The notes under the pieces: model-generated
What the model was told of the DNA's origin: nothing
What the model saw: the letters and a program-made list of their open reading frames with translations, nothing else
Databases searched by the model: none
Translations under genes and position numbers: made by a program
DNA from: Porticoccaceae bacterium
GTDB lineage: Bacteria > Pseudomonadota > Gammaproteobacteria > Pseudomonadales > Porticoccaceae
DNA length: 64,000 nt
Assembly: GCA_018663035.1 (NCBI GenBank)
Contig: JABJEX010000014.1
Location: forward strand, 122,099-186,098
Reading direction: 5' to 3'
Part shown: positions 38,822 through 47,313 of the stretch, piece after piece
Position numbering within the stretch: the stretch's first letter is position 1
How the letters are laid out: every line of letters begins with the position of its first letter

Positions 38822-40195
38822 TCACTGAGTTAGAGCATCCAATGCTTCGGTCACTCGACGAACTGGTATCACAGTCATACCTTTGATCGCCTGCTTAGGT
38901 GCGTTACCAGCCGGCACAATGGCTCGGGTAAAACCATGTTTTGCTGCTTCTCTAAGGCGCTCCTGTCCATTGGCGACTGGACGAATTTCACCGGCCAAAC
39001 CAACCTCTCCGAAAACCACTAGATCCTGAGGTAATGTCCTGTCTCTAAAACTTGAGACCACCGACAAAATAAGCGCCAAGTCGGCACTTGTTTCCATTAC
39101 CTTGACCCCGCCCACTACATTGACGAACACATCCTGATCACCTACGGAAATTCCACCGTGACGGTGCAACACCGCCAGCAGCATAGAGAGACGGTTATGG
39201 TCCAGACCCAAAGTAACTCGACGCGGATTGCCCAGATGGCTGTCATCAACCAGGGCCTGCAACTCAACGAGCAGAGGGCGTGTACCCTCCCAAACCACCA
39301 TTACGACGCTACCTGAGGAGACCTCTTCACCACGCTGCAAAAAAATTGCTGAGGGATTAGCTACTTCTTTTAGACCCTTATCAGTCATAGCAAAGACACC
39401 CAACTCATTAACCGCCCCGAAGCGATTTTTATGGCTGCGCAGGGTGCGGAAGTGACTGTCGCTGGAACCCTCCAACATCAATGAACAGTCAATCATATGT
39501 TCCAATACCTTGGGGCCAGCCAGTGAGCCATCTTTGGTAACATGACCAACCAAAATCAGCACTGTGCCAGTCTGCTTAGCGAAACGCACCAGCATTGAGG
39601 CGCTCTCACGCACCTGAGAGACACTGCCAGGAGCCGAGGCAATCTCCTCCATGTGCATTACCTGAATTGAGTCGACTACCAGTATCTTAGGCCGCTTCTG
39701 CTCTGCGATGGCACAGACTGTCTCGACCGATGTCTCTGCCATAATTTCGAGCTTTTCAGTGGGCAGATCGAGACGGCGAGCGCGCATGGCTACCTGCTGA
39801 GGGGATTCCTCGCCCGTCACGTAAAGTGCTGACTGGGTCCCTGCTAATTTACAAAGCGTCTGCAATAACAGGGTACTCTTTCCTGCACCTGGCTCACCGC
39901 CTACCAAAATTGCAGAGCCTGGCACCAGACCGCCACCAAGCACCAGATCCAGCTCACCAGTACCTGTATTAATTCTGGGAATTTCATCCAGCGCAATTTC
40001 CGCCAGCGTTTTGACCGCCCCGTCCACTGCACCTGCAAACCCCGAGCGCAACACTTTGCCTGTACCTGAGGTTGGCCCTAAACGTACCTCCGATAGAGTA
40101 TTCCACGCTTGACACTCACCGCACTGGCCCTGCCATTTGCGATAGTCGGCGCCGCAGTCGTTGCATACATAGGCTGATTTTGATTTGGTGGCCAA
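38822..40195 (-). CDS. radA: DNA repair protein RadA
   Basis: CNDCGADYRKWQGQCGECQAWNT zinc finger; GGEPGAGKSTLLLQ; KNRFGAVNELGVFAM. Confidence 0.97.
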   Translation of the reverse strand: MATKSKSAYVCNDCGADYRKWQGQCGECQAWNTLSEVRLGPTSGTGKVLRSGFAGAVDGAVKTLAEIALDEIPRINTGTGELDLVLGGGLVPGSAILVGGEPGAGKSTLLLQTLCKLAGTQSALYVTGEESPQQVAMRARRLDLPTEKLEIMAETSVETVCAIAEQKRPKILVVDSIQVMHMEEIASAPGSVSQVRESASMLVRFAKQTGTVLILVGHVTKDGSLAGPKVLEHMIDCSLMLEGSSDSHFRTLRSHKNRFGAVNELGVFAMTDKGLKEVANPSAIFLQRGEEVSSGSVVMVVWEGTRPLLVELQALVDDSHLGNPRRVTLGLDHNRLSMLLAVLHRHGGISVGDQDVFVNVVGGVKVMETSADLALILSVVSSFRDRTLPQDLVVFGEVGLAGEIRPVANGQERLREAAKHGFTRAIVPAGNAPKQAIKGMTVIPVRRVTEALDALTQ

Positions 40196-41562: not shown

Positions 41563-42672
41563 ATGTCTCTAATACCAGAAAAACCAATCGTTATATCACC
41601 CACGCTAGCCGCCACCCTGGGGCTGGAGGAGACCGTTTTGCTGCAGCTATTGCAAGAGTGCCAGGCCCATGGCAACGCGGTGGAGAGCAGCGGTTTTAAT
41701 TGGGTAACTGTCTCTGGGCAAAGGATCCTCAGTTTGGCGCCGTTTTGGCGCGAAGAGGATATTCGCCGCCTGTCAGCAAGTCTGCATGAAAAAGGCCTGT
41801 TGCTGATTGGGGGCGGTGGCTTTTCTGCGCAACAGGATTTCCGCTTCGCCTTTAATGAGAGCTCTGGCAGTTCGCAGGTGACTCAAAAACCAGCCTATCA
41901 GACAGCGGTTAATCCCACCTCAGCAAAAACCATTGGCGGCAGTTGGCAACCCAGCGATGATGCACTGCGGCAACTAGCCCAACTTGGAGTCACTAGACAA
42001 TTTGCCCAGCAGCAGATACCACAGTTTGTAGCCTATTGGCGTGAGCGCAATGTGCCCCGCCACAGCTGGGAATCAAAATATATTAAAGAGGTCTGGCGGC
42101 AGTGGCAGCAGGCAGAAAGTACTAATCACCGCCGACGCCTCGAGGTCTCTGTTACCGATGAGTGGCGGCCTTCTGTAGATGCCATGGACATTCTGGTAAA
42201 ACAGGGTGGCATCAACAGCAACTTTATCGAAGACGCGATTCCTGAGTTTATTCTCTACTGGCGGGATCGCGGTGATGTCTCTAGTACCTGGGACTCAAAA
42301 TTTATTCAGCATGTGCGCCGTCAATGGCAGTTCTATACTGGCATGATGGATCAAGACACCATGCCGCGCACCATACCTGCGCAGTGGCAACCCAGAGAGA
42401 CTGTCTATGATGTGCTGCAGATGGCGAATATTGACCGCCAGTTTGCTCAACAGATCATTCCTGAGTTCGTTCTTTACTGGCAGGAGAATGGCACCCCCCA
42501 TGCCTCCTGGAGTACCAAGTTTTTGCAGTTCGTAAAGCGCCAGTGGGCGCGACATAATCAACCTCAGTCAACGAGTGGAACCCATGGCAAACAGCACGGA
42601 TCTTATTCAGAAGGTCGCATCAGAGATCGCAGCTTCGTCGAAGACCTCACCGACCGCAGCTGGGCAAGCTAA
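41563..42672 (+). CDS. DnaT-like domain protein with three tandem DnaT-type repeats
   Basis: Three units: WQPSDDALRQLAQLGVTRQFAQQQIPQFVAYWRERN..SWESKYIKEVWRQWQ; WRPSVDAMDILVKQGGINSNFIEDAIPEFILYWRDRG..TWDSKFIQHVRRQWQ; WQPRETVYDVLQMANIDRQFAQQIIPEFVLYWQENG..SWSTKFLQFVKRQWAR. Confidence 0.85.
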   Translation: MSLIPEKPIVISPTLAATLGLEETVLLQLLQECQAHGNAVESSGFNWVTVSGQRILSLAPFWREEDIRRLSASLHEKGLLLIGGGGFSAQQDFRFAFNESSGSSQVTQKPAYQTAVNPTSAKTIGGSWQPSDDALRQLAQLGVTRQFAQQQIPQFVAYWRERNVPRHSWESKYIKEVWRQWQQAESTNHRRRLEVSVTDEWRPSVDAMDILVKQGGINSNFIEDAIPEFILYWRDRGDVSSTWDSKFIQHVRRQWQFYTGMMDQDTMPRTIPAQWQPRETVYDVLQMANIDRQFAQQIIPEFVLYWQENGTPHASWSTKFLQFVKRQWARHNQPQSTSGTHGKQHGSYSEGRIRDRSFVEDLTDRSWAS

Positions 42673-43249
42673 GCCCGAGCCGCCTAACCCAGAACTGATT
42701 GATGCTATCAATCAGATTTTTGGGCTGTTTCGCGCCAACTACCACAATCAATACTACAGCGCCTTTGGCGATAAAAATGAATCCGTTGGCCTAGCGAAAA
42801 AACTATGGCTTGCCAAGCTCAGTGACTTCGCTCCACAGACTATTTTGTCGGCGGCAGAAAAGATAATCGGCGATAGTGAGTACTTGCCGACACTGCACAA
42901 AATGCTTGGCGCCTGCCGCTCTGTCAGCATGCCCGCCGGACTTCCCAATGCCCGCAAAGCCTATCAGGAGGCCTGCAATAAACGCAGCCCCAAAGCTGAG
43001 CAGCAATGGTCTCATGCAGTGGTCTATTTAGCAGGTCGCGACTGTGGCTGGCACCTGCTAGCTAATGAGGTCGAATCCAAAGCTCTGCCAGCATTTACAG
43101 AAATCTACCAACAGTACTGTGATCAGGTGATTAGAGGCGAAGAATTCTCCATAGAGCCTCCCCAGGCACTGCCAGAAACATCTCAGACACTGGCCAGTAA
43201 AACGCATAATCGCGAACAGTTAGATCAGCTTAAGCAGCTTTTAAGCTAG
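42584..43249 (+). CDS. Phage-lambda-P-like replication protein
   Basis: NPELIDAINQIFGLFRANYHNQYYSAFGDKNESVGLAKKLWLAKLSDFAPQTILSAAEKIIGDSEYLPTLHKMLGACRS; ATG at 42584 inside the upstream gene. Confidence 0.75.
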   Translation: MANSTDLIQKVASEIAASSKTSPTAAGQAKPEPPNPELIDAINQIFGLFRANYHNQYYSAFGDKNESVGLAKKLWLAKLSDFAPQTILSAAEKIIGDSEYLPTLHKMLGACRSVSMPAGLPNARKAYQEACNKRSPKAEQQWSHAVVYLAGRDCGWHLLANEVESKALPAFTEIYQQYCDQVIRGEEFSIEPPQALPETSQTLASKTHNREQLDQLKQLLS

Positions 43250-43265: not shown

Positions 43266-45038
43266 ATGGCAGGACAACTCCTCACCCATAACTCTACAGC
43301 GCGGCGCATGGCCAAGACCATTCTCAATGGTTTTCGCAGTTATTTTGCCGACTATCTAAATAGTACCCTAAGCGCCAAAGCACGCTTTGAAAAAGCCGAC
43401 TGGCACGGTGTGCAGCAGGCTAATGTGGATCGCCTAGAGCTCTATAAAACAAAGGTTGCTCAGACAGTTCAGTATTTAGAGATGGTTACCAACAGAGACA
43501 TTGCCAACCTCGAGCTCTGGAGTGAAGCCAAACAGGCCTATACTCAGCTGGTATTTAACTTTCCAAATTTTGAGATTGCCGAAACCTTCTTCAATTCAGT
43601 ATTCGCCGATATTCATGACCATGACAAAATCAGCGACGACATTATCTATGTTCTTTCCTCTCAACTACTCGAGGCACCAGAGGCTGAATACAGTATCTTT
43701 GTGCGCTATGAGGGCGAAGGGTTTCGCGAGACCTTTAAGCGCATTTTAAAAGAGTCGGAATTTAGCCTACCAGGCGAGGATATCGAGCTGGATCTCGACT
43801 GTATTATGCGGGTCTTTCAACAGGAGGTCGTCCCTCAGCTACAGAGCCCAGCGGACGATATTAAATTTGATATTTTAGAATCCACTTTTTATCGCAGCAA
43901 AGCCGCCTACATGGTTGGTCGTGTAGTGGATGGCGATAATATCTTCCCTATGGCCCTGGTTTTTCTCAATACAGAAGAAGGTAGCCTGTATGTTGATACG
44001 GCACTGTTCAATGATGACGATCTAAGTGTGGTGTTTAGCTTTACCCGCAACCATTTCATGGTGGATGCACCGCTGCCCTACCAGTACGCACATTTTTTGA
44101 AGACGCTGATGCCTCGCAAACTCGACTATGAGATCTATAATTCTCTGGGCTTCCCCAAGCATGCAAAAACCGAGTTTTACCGACAACTAGTGGGCCACTT
44201 AGAGAATAGCGATGATAAGTTCATCGTTGCGCCAGGTATCAAAGGGATGGTGATGACCGTATTTACACTGCCCTCCTACAATATTGTGTTTAAAATAATT
44301 AAAGATAAGTTCGCTCCGCCAAAAGAGGTTACCCATCAGATAGTACGGGAAAAGTATCGCCTAGTTTCACGCCATGACCGTATCGGACGAATGGCTGACA
44401 CCCAGGAATTTGATAATCTGGTCTTTCCTTTAAATCGTTTCTCTGATGCGCTAATTGAGGAACTGCAAAAAGTGGCCAAATCCTCCATTGAAATGCGGGG
44501 AGACAAGTTAGTTATCAAGCACCTTTACACAGAGCGCTACATGACACCGCTCAATATCTTTCTTGAGAGCGCCGATGACGAGCAGATTCGCAGTGCCATG
44601 GAAGAGTATGGCAACTGTATTAAACAGTTGGCGGCAGCGAATATTTTTCCAGGTGACATGCCGCTCAAGAACTTTGGTGTAACCCGACATGGCCGCGTCG
44701 TGTTTTATGATTATGACGAAATCGCGTCGTTGACTGATTGCAACTTTCGGGAAATTCCTCAACCGCGCAATGAACAGGAAGAAATGCAATCAGGTACCTG
44801 GTACACAGTTGGGCCCGACGATATTTTTCCTGAGGAGTTTCGGCTGTTTTTCTCTGGCAACACAAAAGCCCGAAAAATGTTTGAAGAAATGCACGGTGAA
44901 CTCTACGAGGTGGGCTTTTGGACTGACCTGCAGAAGCAGATCCGCAATGGCTATGTGGTGGACGTCTTCCCTTATCGCCGAGCCAAGCGGTTTGATCGCG
45001 GCAAAAATGCAGCGGCTCTCGCAGTGTTTTCTGATTAA
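43266..45038 (+). CDS. aceK: Isocitrate dehydrogenase kinase/phosphatase AceK
   Basis: KGMVMTVFTLPSYNIVFKIIKDKFAPPK; NIFPGDMPLKNFGVTRHGRVVFYDYDEI. Confidence 0.97.
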   Translation: MAGQLLTHNSTARRMAKTILNGFRSYFADYLNSTLSAKARFEKADWHGVQQANVDRLELYKTKVAQTVQYLEMVTNRDIANLELWSEAKQAYTQLVFNFPNFEIAETFFNSVFADIHDHDKISDDIIYVLSSQLLEAPEAEYSIFVRYEGEGFRETFKRILKESEFSLPGEDIELDLDCIMRVFQQEVVPQLQSPADDIKFDILESTFYRSKAAYMVGRVVDGDNIFPMALVFLNTEEGSLYVDTALFNDDDLSVVFSFTRNHFMVDAPLPYQYAHFLKTLMPRKLDYEIYNSLGFPKHAKTEFYRQLVGHLENSDDKFIVAPGIKGMVMTVFTLPSYNIVFKIIKDKFAPPKEVTHQIVREKYRLVSRHDRIGRMADTQEFDNLVFPLNRFSDALIEELQKVAKSSIEMRGDKLVIKHLYTERYMTPLNIFLESADDEQIRSAMEEYGNCIKQLAAANIFPGDMPLKNFGVTRHGRVVFYDYDEIASLTDCNFREIPQPRNEQEEMQSGTWYTVGPDDIFPEEFRLFFSGNTKARKMFEEMHGELYEVGFWTDLQKQIRNGYVVDVFPYRRAKRFDRGKNAAALAVFSD

Positions 45039-45565
45039 CGGTAAGGCAGGGTTTCCAGTCGCTCTCCAGACCTTATCTCAAGTCCCTCTAGCCCTATAGA
45101 TTCAATGACCCAGTTATCGTCAAGGCTATCACCCAGGCGAAAACTCCTATTGCCAGCAAACAGGCGATTGGATGAAGAGCCCTCAGAAATATACATATGA
45201 CCTGAAATAGCTAGATCTGGCAGTGGCACAGACGGGGCCGGCTTGGGGACTATGGGTTCAGGCTCAGACGCCATTTTAGGCTGAACTATAGGGTTAGATA
45301 TCTGATCAAGCTGTGAGATAACTGAGCTAGTGGGCTCATCGACCGCAGTGATTGGCGACTGAATCTTAAAATTTCCAGAGTAGATAACGAGCGCCACTAA
45401 AATCACCAGAGTAACCGCCAGCAACAGCAGATATTTAACGCTGATTGAACTGGATGTTTGTTGGTAGGGGTCCCAGTTAGCGCTGGCAAAGTCATCTAGC
45501 TCCTGAGGGTCCTCACGCAACCTATCTCGCTCAGCTTTTTTAAGGGCATCGAGAATATAAGACAT
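45035..45565 (-). CDS. gspB: General secretion pathway protein GspB
   Basis: MSYILDALKKAERDR N-terminus, one TM, C-terminal GspB domain; directly downstream of gspA. Confidence 0.85.
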   Translation of the reverse strand: MSYILDALKKAERDRLREDPQELDDFASANWDPYQQTSSSISVKYLLLLAVTLVILVALVIYSGNFKIQSPITAVDEPTSSVISQLDQISNPIVQPKMASEPEPIVPKPAPSVPLPDLAISGHMYISEGSSSNRLFAGNRSFRLGDSLDDNWVIESIGLEGLEIRSGERLETLPYR

Positions 45566-47313
45566 TAATTCTGCTCCTGTAACAGCAGTGGCAACTCAGT
45601 ATTGGTGAGCTGATTAATTCTCATCAGGGTCTCACGCCCCACTACTCCGTCGGCTTTAATATTTTGTTGGCGCTGGAAGTTTAACACCTGCTCCACGGTC
45701 GCCTGAGTATAACGACCACCAGTGATAAGAGGCTCTGTGGTCGGGTCAATGGCAAGAAGTTTATCCTGCAACCAGGCTATTGCCTGCGGGTCTCTGTCGC
45801 CCAATTTAAGGGTTTGAACCGACTCGGGAGGTTGCCACAAATAGATGAATCGGCCAGACCAGTATTGAGCAAATTCCTGATGGTTAAGCTGCAATTCCTT
45901 ACCACCCTGAGCCAGAATCAATATCTGGCCGTCGGCCCGAGTTAACAGGTAACTTTTAAGATAGCCAGTTGGCTCTTGCAACCAAAGAATTCCCGGGCGA
46001 TTAATTTTCTCTAAATCTGCAATCTCGGCCCCATCTATAACCTCTGCTCGCAACCCATAAAAAGCGGCTCGACTGACAAATTCCTGCTCCGAAAAAATCT
46101 GACTTTCAGCGACAGACCAAAGCGCAAACAACCCGGCAAATGGATTAACGCTGAACTGAGAGCCCTCAGCAGGTAAAGAGCCCTCAGCAGGTAAAGAGCC
46201 CTCAGCAGGTAAAGAGCCCTCAGCGGATAAAAAGCCCTCAGCGGATAAAGAACCCTCGGCAACCTGAGAGCCCCGACCCAGCCCAGACTTTTCCCCTAAA
46301 GCAAGCGGCATACCTGCCTCAAACTGTTCCCCACCACCCTGAGCCTCTGAGGCTAACTCTGATAGCTGAGTATTTACTGACTGCTTAGTAACTTGAAGCA
46401 TCGACCACTGGATGTTGTAACCCAACCAAATAGCAGCCCCAAGAATAGGTATCGCCAGAAGCCACCATCTACTGATTTTTTGCTCTGTGTTTTGGCTGCC
46501 TAAGATTTCTTTGGCAGCCTGCTTGATAAGTTTAGGCGTCACCCGTTGGGTGCCTGCGGCATAGGCCGCCAGCAAAGAGTGCTGACATACTAGGTTAATC
46601 AGCCTAGGGACACCCCCGGTCAGTCGGAACAGCACCGCCATGCAGTTGCGATCAAACAACGGGCTTTTAGCGCCAGCGCGATGGAGCCGGTGATTGACAT
46701 AATTAGATAGTTCGTCTTTTTCCAGGGGCAGAAGATGAAATCTAGATATTACCCGCTGGTTTAGCTGGCGCAGCCCCTTTTGAGCTAGAGTCTCCAGTAA
46801 TTCCGGCTGACCAACCAGCAGTATATGCAGTAACTTGTGAGTTTGGGTTTCAAGGTTACTCAGTAACCGCAGAGCCTCTAACACCTCGGCGGTAAGGTTC
46901 TGGGCCTCTTCAATCACGATAAGTGTCTTCTTGCCCTCAGCATGAGCCTGCAGAAGATCCTGATTGAGAGAGTCAATACAGATTTTTGAAAATGATAATC
47001 CCGGGGAATCGGGCAAATCTATGCCTAGCTCATGGCAGATACTTGCCAGCACATCACCGATCTCAAGTTTGCTATTGAGCACATAGGCCACGCGCACATG
47101 GGCTGGCAGCCTCTTGAGCATGGTGCGGGTCAATGTGGTTTTACCCGTACCCACTTCGCCGGTGAGCAATATAAAGCCACCCTCGCGATCAAGGCCGTAT
47201 TTGAGATGGGCTACGGCCTGACGATGATGGTTACTGGGATACAGAAACCCAGGGTCTGGAACTATAGAGAAAGGCTCTTTGGTAAGGCCAAAATGCTTGA
47301 GATAAATACTCAT
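45565..47313 (-). CDS. gspA: GspA/ExeA-type AAA ATPase with C-terminal peptidoglycan-binding domain
   Basis: YLKHFGLTKEPFSIVPDPGFLYPS; LLTGEVGTGKTTLTR; C-terminal PG_binding_1-like segment. Confidence 0.92.
   Translation of the reverse strand: MSIYLKHFGLTKEPFSIVPDPGFLYPSNHHRQAVAHLKYGLDREGGFILLTGEVGTGKTTLTRTMLKRLPAHVRVAYVLNSKLEIGDVLASICHELGIDLPDSPGLSFSKICIDSLNQDLLQAHAEGKKTLIVIEEAQNLTAEVLEALRLLSNLETQTHKLLHILLVGQPELLETLAQKGLRQLNQRVISRFHLLPLEKDELSNYVNHRLHRAGAKSPLFDRNCMAVLFRLTGGVPRLINLVCQHSLLAAYAAGTQRVTPKLIKQAAKEILGSQNTEQKISRWWLLAIPILGAAIWLGYNIQWSMLQVTKQSVNTQLSELASEAQGGGEQFEAGMPLALGEKSGLGRGSQVAEGSLSAEGFLSAEGSLPAEGSLPAEGSLPAEGSQFSVNPFAGLFALWSVAESQIFSEQEFVSRAAFYGLRAEVIDGAEIADLEKINRPGILWLQEPTGYLKSYLLTRADGQILILAQGGKELQLNHQEFAQYWSGRFIYLWQPPESVQTLKLGDRDPQAIAWLQDKLLAIDPTTEPLITGGRYTQATVEQVLNFQRQQNIKADGVVGRETLMRINQLTNTELPLLLQEQN
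46161..46268. repeat. 18-bp in-frame tandem repeat (five near-identical units plus one degenerate) in gspA
   Basis: agccctcagcaggtaaag x3 identical, then two agccctcagcggataaa(a/g), then aaccctcggcaacctgag; encodes LPAEGS/LSAEG(S/F). Confidence 0.95.

Follow-up and report, generated by a model that had tools for sequence, protein, structure and literature searches.

Helicase loading in bacteria without DnaC/DnaI and DciA

For bacteria that carry neither dnaC/dnaI nor dciA, Brézellec et al. 2017 (doi 10.1093/gbe/evx111) reportedly proposed a lambda-derived gene pair that loads the replicative helicase, presumably the pair known as DopC/DopE. DopE appears in the literature as the name of a loader family (PMC13326638), and the Cellvibrionales were noted in 2016 as being without both dnaC/I and dciA (PMC5109545). 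In phage lambda itself, the C-terminal helix of P sits on a site made by the C-terminal domain and the linker helix of DnaB (PMC6391071), the final five residues are indispensable for O activity, and a P-binding domain has been suggested to lie in the C-terminal region of O (PMC6022878).

The window analyzed here is a stretch of 64,000 nucleotides from a Porticoccaceae genome (SAR92/HTCC2207 group, marine bacteria; 2.02 Mb, 104 contigs, scored 100% complete) that falls within the Cellvibrionales group flagged as having neither loader. It contains two overlapping genes, ORF1 and ORF2, which resemble DopC/DopE in two respects: the genome has no dciA and no dnaC/dnaI, and the genes form an adjacent, lambda-derived pair that is resident and conserved in its lineage. 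On these two features, the pair is likely one member of the kind already proposed. We put a probability of roughly 85% on the reading that the pair is a domesticated lambda-O/P-type module that would load DnaB on the chromosome in place of DnaC or DciA. This assessment draws on features that can be read from the genomes themselves, namely the homologies of both proteins, the tail of ORF1, the missing dciA and dnaC genes, conservation of the locus, the exclusion of DciA, and purifying selection.

ORF2 is related to the lambda P helicase loader

ORF2 (42584–43249, plus strand) encodes a protein of 221 aa from an ATG start. The sequence-only reading had taken it for a lambda-P-type replication protein, and the profile searches bore this out: in a protein scan, ORF2 matched PF06992 (Phage_lambda_P) with an E-value of 7e-8 and 32.8 bits (curated cut-off, 26), and its residues 9–221 matched phrog_109, a “P-like helicase loader”, with an E-value of 4.4e-17. 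A six-frame PF06992 search of its own genome missed ORF2, even though the protein scan exceeds the cut-off; the survey of relatives used P itself as the query instead of PF06992. Translation probably does not begin at the GTG at 42575; the homologs of ORF2 start at the position matching the ATG at 42584. Counted from this ATG, ORF2 overlaps ORF1 by 89 nt in a different frame (42584–42672, plus strand), a length that is found in most relatives and is the commonest for this overlap among them.

A profile built from 19 chromosomal ORF2 relatives was compared to the PDB; lambda P (8v9t) was the only match below an E-value of 0.1 (E 1.4e-4), and the alignment is collinear over positions 30–220. The AlphaFold2 model of ORF2 is of moderate confidence (pLDDT 73.8, pTM 0.46). 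When this model was used in a Foldseek search, the top five PDB matches were all lambda P chains in DnaB complexes, the first three having a probability of 1.00 and E-values from 5.8e-5 to 9.7e-4, with TM-scores of about 0.5 for a model of that confidence. ORF2 thus shares with lambda P (PF06992; 8v9t, 9oa1, and 9oa2) a collinear sequence, a similar predicted fold, and a C-terminal helix; it differs in that the identity is only about 18% in the fold alignment and in that ORF2 is chromosomal and conserved without a phage. The predicted C-terminal helix (residues 206–220; 43199–43243, plus strand) is the putative counterpart of the lambda P helix and, by analogy, may play the same part on the linker-helix site of DnaB.

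ORF1 combines a winged helix, three DnaT domains, and a lambda-O-like tail

ORF1 (41563–42672, plus strand) encodes a protein of 369 aa with a winged helix, three DnaT domains, a disordered linker, and an O-like tail. It matched PF17948 (DnaT) in three separate stretches (E 3.6e-66 for the whole protein), consistent with the N-terminal segment and three tandem DnaT-type units described from the letters alone. Domain 1 (residues ~124–186; 41932–42120) scored 71 bits, domain 2 (~197–261; 42151–42345) 87.4 bits, and domain 3 (~271–336; 42373–42570) 82.8 bits, all on the plus strand and each within 71–87 bits against a curated cut-off of 25. In a PF17948 search of the whole genome, ORF1 was the sole site, with three matches (E 9.5e-25, 2.6e-23, and 1.3e-19). 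The N-terminal part matched phrog_6493, a DnaD-like helicase loader (E 3.9e-4), and the predicted structure places a winged-helix domain at residues ~12–98 (41596–41856, plus strand), with a predicted order of H-H-E-E-H-H-E-E and a pLDDT of ~82–92 across most of it. Beyond this confidently predicted winged helix, the model has a helical bundle for each of the three DnaT domains, then a disordered linker and a short terminal segment. A fold search with the ORF1 model returned nothing significant; DnaT84-153 with ssDNA and winged-helix proteins were among the weak matches.

The last residues of ORF1 (EDLTDRSWAS; 42640–42669, plus strand) match the tail of lambda O: ORF1 has LTDRSW (LTDRSWA) where lambda O has LTNTDW. 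The D-x-S-W-A pattern is invariant in the aligned homologs (25/25). Among 126 distinct partner proteins, DxxW occurs within the last 30 residues of 122, and three of the remaining four have NxxW. The C-terminus of lambda O is LTNTDWIYGVDL and that of O from Pseudomonas phage PAJU2 is NDTSWAVGLEQDLF, and in relatives the O proteins of two prophages terminate with DDTSW... and LTDTDW; no such tail was found in E. coli DnaT. The two genes for O and P share one base only in PAJU2, so gene overlap does not account for the tail motif. One of these prophages (L316), which lies among repressor, sigma factor, and resolvase-type genes, encodes a protein with a helix-turn-helix, one DnaT domain, and LTDTDW adjoining P, indicating that an architecture of the ORF1 type exists in phage form.

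Given a tail that is shared with lambda, PAJU2, and prophage O proteins and absent from E. coli DnaT, the most fitting reading of ORF1 is an O-type P partner that employs DnaT domains. The three DnaT-type units described earlier are confirmed, but the protein as a whole does not look like an ordinary DnaT: ORF1 fell short of the cut-off of the full-length DnaT equivalog NF002770 (12.5 vs. 201 bits). What ORF1 shares with E. coli DnaT is the ssDNA-binding domain and a gene that adjoins a helicase-loader gene, whereas E. coli DnaT has one domain, no O-like tail, and the AAA+ protein DnaC as its loader partner. With lambda O it shares a gene position directly upstream of P, an N-terminal winged helix of DNA-binding type, and the tail; however, ORF1 has no match to PF04492 (Phage_rep_O), which both lambda O and PAJU2 O match, and it carries three DnaT domains between winged helix and tail where lambda O has none.

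The pair is found where DciA is absent

The sequence-only reading had asked whether the full genome carries dciA or dnaC, on the idea that the pair stands in for a missing loader. A whole-genome search for DciA (PF05258) found none, and a search for DnaC with the IstB/DnaC profile gave only three weak matches, which are DnaA, ClpB, and PhoH. Across 392 genomes of the order, P was found in 235, DciA in 121, and both in 2; by family, 28 have P, 17 have DciA, and two have neither. In the two genomes with both, the P copies group with phage P and the DnaT partner is absent. DnaT domains occur in 235 genomes, which are nearly the same set as those with P. The searches used found neither P nor DciA in 38 of the 392 genomes, so exclusion does not amount to complete replacement; the likely reasons are limits of detection and incompleteness of genomes. 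DciA resembles the pair in its presumed role as a DnaB operator, and its distribution and that of P are mutually exclusive, but its sequence is unrelated to ORF1 and ORF2. With dciA and dnaC absent, ORF2 homologous to lambda P, and DciA excluded throughout the order, the genomic evidence supports the helicase-loader role first suggested for the pair, and the order-wide exclusion fits the DopC/DopE proposal.

These distributions also bear on the alternative that the pair serves mostly in replication restart, akin to a PriA-DnaT primosome, and that another factor loads DnaB at oriC. DnaT is a restart protein in E. coli, all three ORF1 domains are of DnaT type, and the locus adjoins radA, a recombination helicase gene. 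However, the loader that partners DnaT in E. coli is DnaC, and here there is neither DnaC nor DciA; the loader excluded across genomes is DciA, which acts at oriC; and ORF1 is far from the DnaT equivalog. We regard a role confined mainly to restart as improbable.

The pair occupies a conserved chromosomal locus

In the window, the pair is surrounded by radA, a GNAT gene, an SDR gene, aceK, and T2SS-type genes. No phage genes were found in this neighborhood, where the surrounding genes are housekeeping genes, in agreement with the metabolic setting (SDR, aceK) remarked on at the outset; the upstream radA, the long ORF1/ORF2 overlap, and the lambda-O-like tail were added by the present analysis. 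A neighborhood comparison identified radA (38822–40195, minus strand) as the conserved upstream neighbor. The gene order in named genomes is radA, pair, aceK in the Porticoccaceae (here aceK is at 43266–45038, plus strand) and radA, pair, dnaB in the Halieaceae, where dnaB takes the place of aceK. In almost all named loci the pair is single-copy and adjoins radA, and by listed coordinates the distance between dnaB and P is no more than about 10 kb in some ten families. P was found in 31 of 36 relatives, nearly always as a single copy, with an overlapping DnaT-type gene directly 5′ of it. The median dN/dS is 0.05 for ORF2 and 0.06 for ORF1, indicating strong purifying selection. Further along the window, 45565–47313 encodes an ExeA-like AAA/peptidoglycan-binding protein with near-identical peptide repeats (SAEGSLPAEGSLPAEGS...) around 46035–46262.

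The same data speak to whether the pair is a prophage remnant, or a recently captured phage O/P pair, without a host function. Its phage ancestry is clear, and genuine prophage O/P copies exist in some relatives (L316 and L317). Against this, the pair is conserved order-wide at a fixed locus, dN/dS is ~0.05, no phage genes lie nearby, and its P forms a clade of its own apart from phage P (support 99/97); moreover, a search of 2.9 million viral contigs with P and ORF1 found no close relatives of the pair, and tblastn of ORF1 against phages gave no match. The chance that it is such a remnant is close to negligible, and we conclude that it is an old, well-kept, resident chromosomal gene pair of phage-lambda-type ancestry. 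A further possibility is an anti-phage decoy or DnaB-titrating device made from phage O/P genes, since DnaB is sequestered by lambda P, which is toxic to E. coli (PMC4926192). Such a device is very unlikely here: practically all genomes of the lineage have the pair, as a single copy, rather than a patchy subset, and it is present exactly where the normal loaders are absent. Two genomes of 6–7 Mb from family f36 (G057 and G094) have 3–5 P-type copies, of which one group is resident and the others lie in prophages (L316 and L317). In Marinomonas phage P12026 (L152:1938-4027), P is followed directly by the phage's own DnaB-like helicase gene.

The triple repeat and the origins of P

The triple DnaT repeat had been singled out as the part to compare; it is indeed present, but it is not peculiar to this genome, being usual in most families of the lineage. 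Families f2, f6, f8, f27, f36, and f39 have one unit, barring occasional extra matches. Family f42, which belongs to the three-unit group, includes a partner with a single DnaT domain (L157, genome G244), apparently by loss, that retains the tail. On the P tree, one chromosomal clade holds the three-unit families together with f2, f8, and f36 (support 99/97), a second holds f6, f27, and f39 (support 100/98), and the phage sequences fall between the two. Two separate domestications of P, one in the three-unit lineage and one in f6/f27/f39, look likely on this tree; however, a single origin was not rejected (AU p 0.30).

The DnaB docking helix differs between P and DciA genomes

The docking helix of DnaB is a shared loader-binding site (PMC9912922). 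At position W+2 of this helix, Arg is found in all 33 DciA genomes and Lys in 48 of 61 P genomes; at W+5, Ser is found in 32 of 33 DciA genomes vs. 21 of 61 P genomes. The DnaB of the source genome retains both Arg (W+2) and Ser (W+5). The counts show a striking covariation of helix and loader type, which is not significant when ancestry is taken into account: the difference is confounded with ancestry, as the tree offers only one well-supported independent contrast. The difference hints at co-adaptation of DnaB and its loader, a reading that is suggestive only.

The dnaB gene of the source genome is at G000:C64:12586-14031 (L212/L214). In the source genus, DnaB has an insertion of ~26 residues near residues 319–344, after the helix RNRIKQFTRE, which is also present in several Porticoccaceae genera and missing from others. 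We set this insertion aside as a loader-linked feature because its position is past the docking helix and related genera that carry P do not have it. Elsewhere, the DnaB match is interrupted near residue 230 in two dnaB frames of 956–965 aa (G097:C12:61762-64611 and G402:C5:275351-278194), the pattern that an intein would give, and a dnaB adjoining P (G100:C14:98662-101247) lies in an 884-aa frame with the match split near residue 393, likely also an intein.

Proposed role of the pair

If the pair is a domesticated lambda-O/P-type loading module, ORF2 would, like lambda P, bind the DnaB hexamer, open its ring, and carry DnaB. ORF1 would be held on DNA by the winged helix and the three ssDNA-binding DnaT domains and would recruit the ORF2-DnaB complex by docking of its O-like C-terminal tail on P. 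The module would act at oriC, possibly also at restart, and the pair would be expected to be essential. More tentatively, ORF1 could be a functional chimera in which an O-type, P-recruiting tail is set on three DnaT ssDNA-binding modules, giving DnaB a place to land at oriC, once melted by DnaA, as well as at collapsed forks. Such a protein would merge the roles of E. coli DnaT in restart and lambda O in initiation; on this speculative account, the module would have arrived beside dnaB/radA and supplanted dciA throughout the order, and the DnaB docking helix would have been remodeled by it.

In the literature consulted here, we found no earlier description of four features: the lambda-O-like tail of ORF1, the siting of the pair at radA-dnaB, the split between one and three DnaT units, and the docking-helix difference. 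For bacteria that lack DnaC/DnaI and DciA, a proposal is so far the only answer to the question of DnaB loading. The exclusion of DciA in one order, the fixed radA-dnaB locus, and the tail shared with lambda O strengthen that proposal, and the tail of ORF1 (DRSW) is a small part that offers a simple and direct test of the mechanism.
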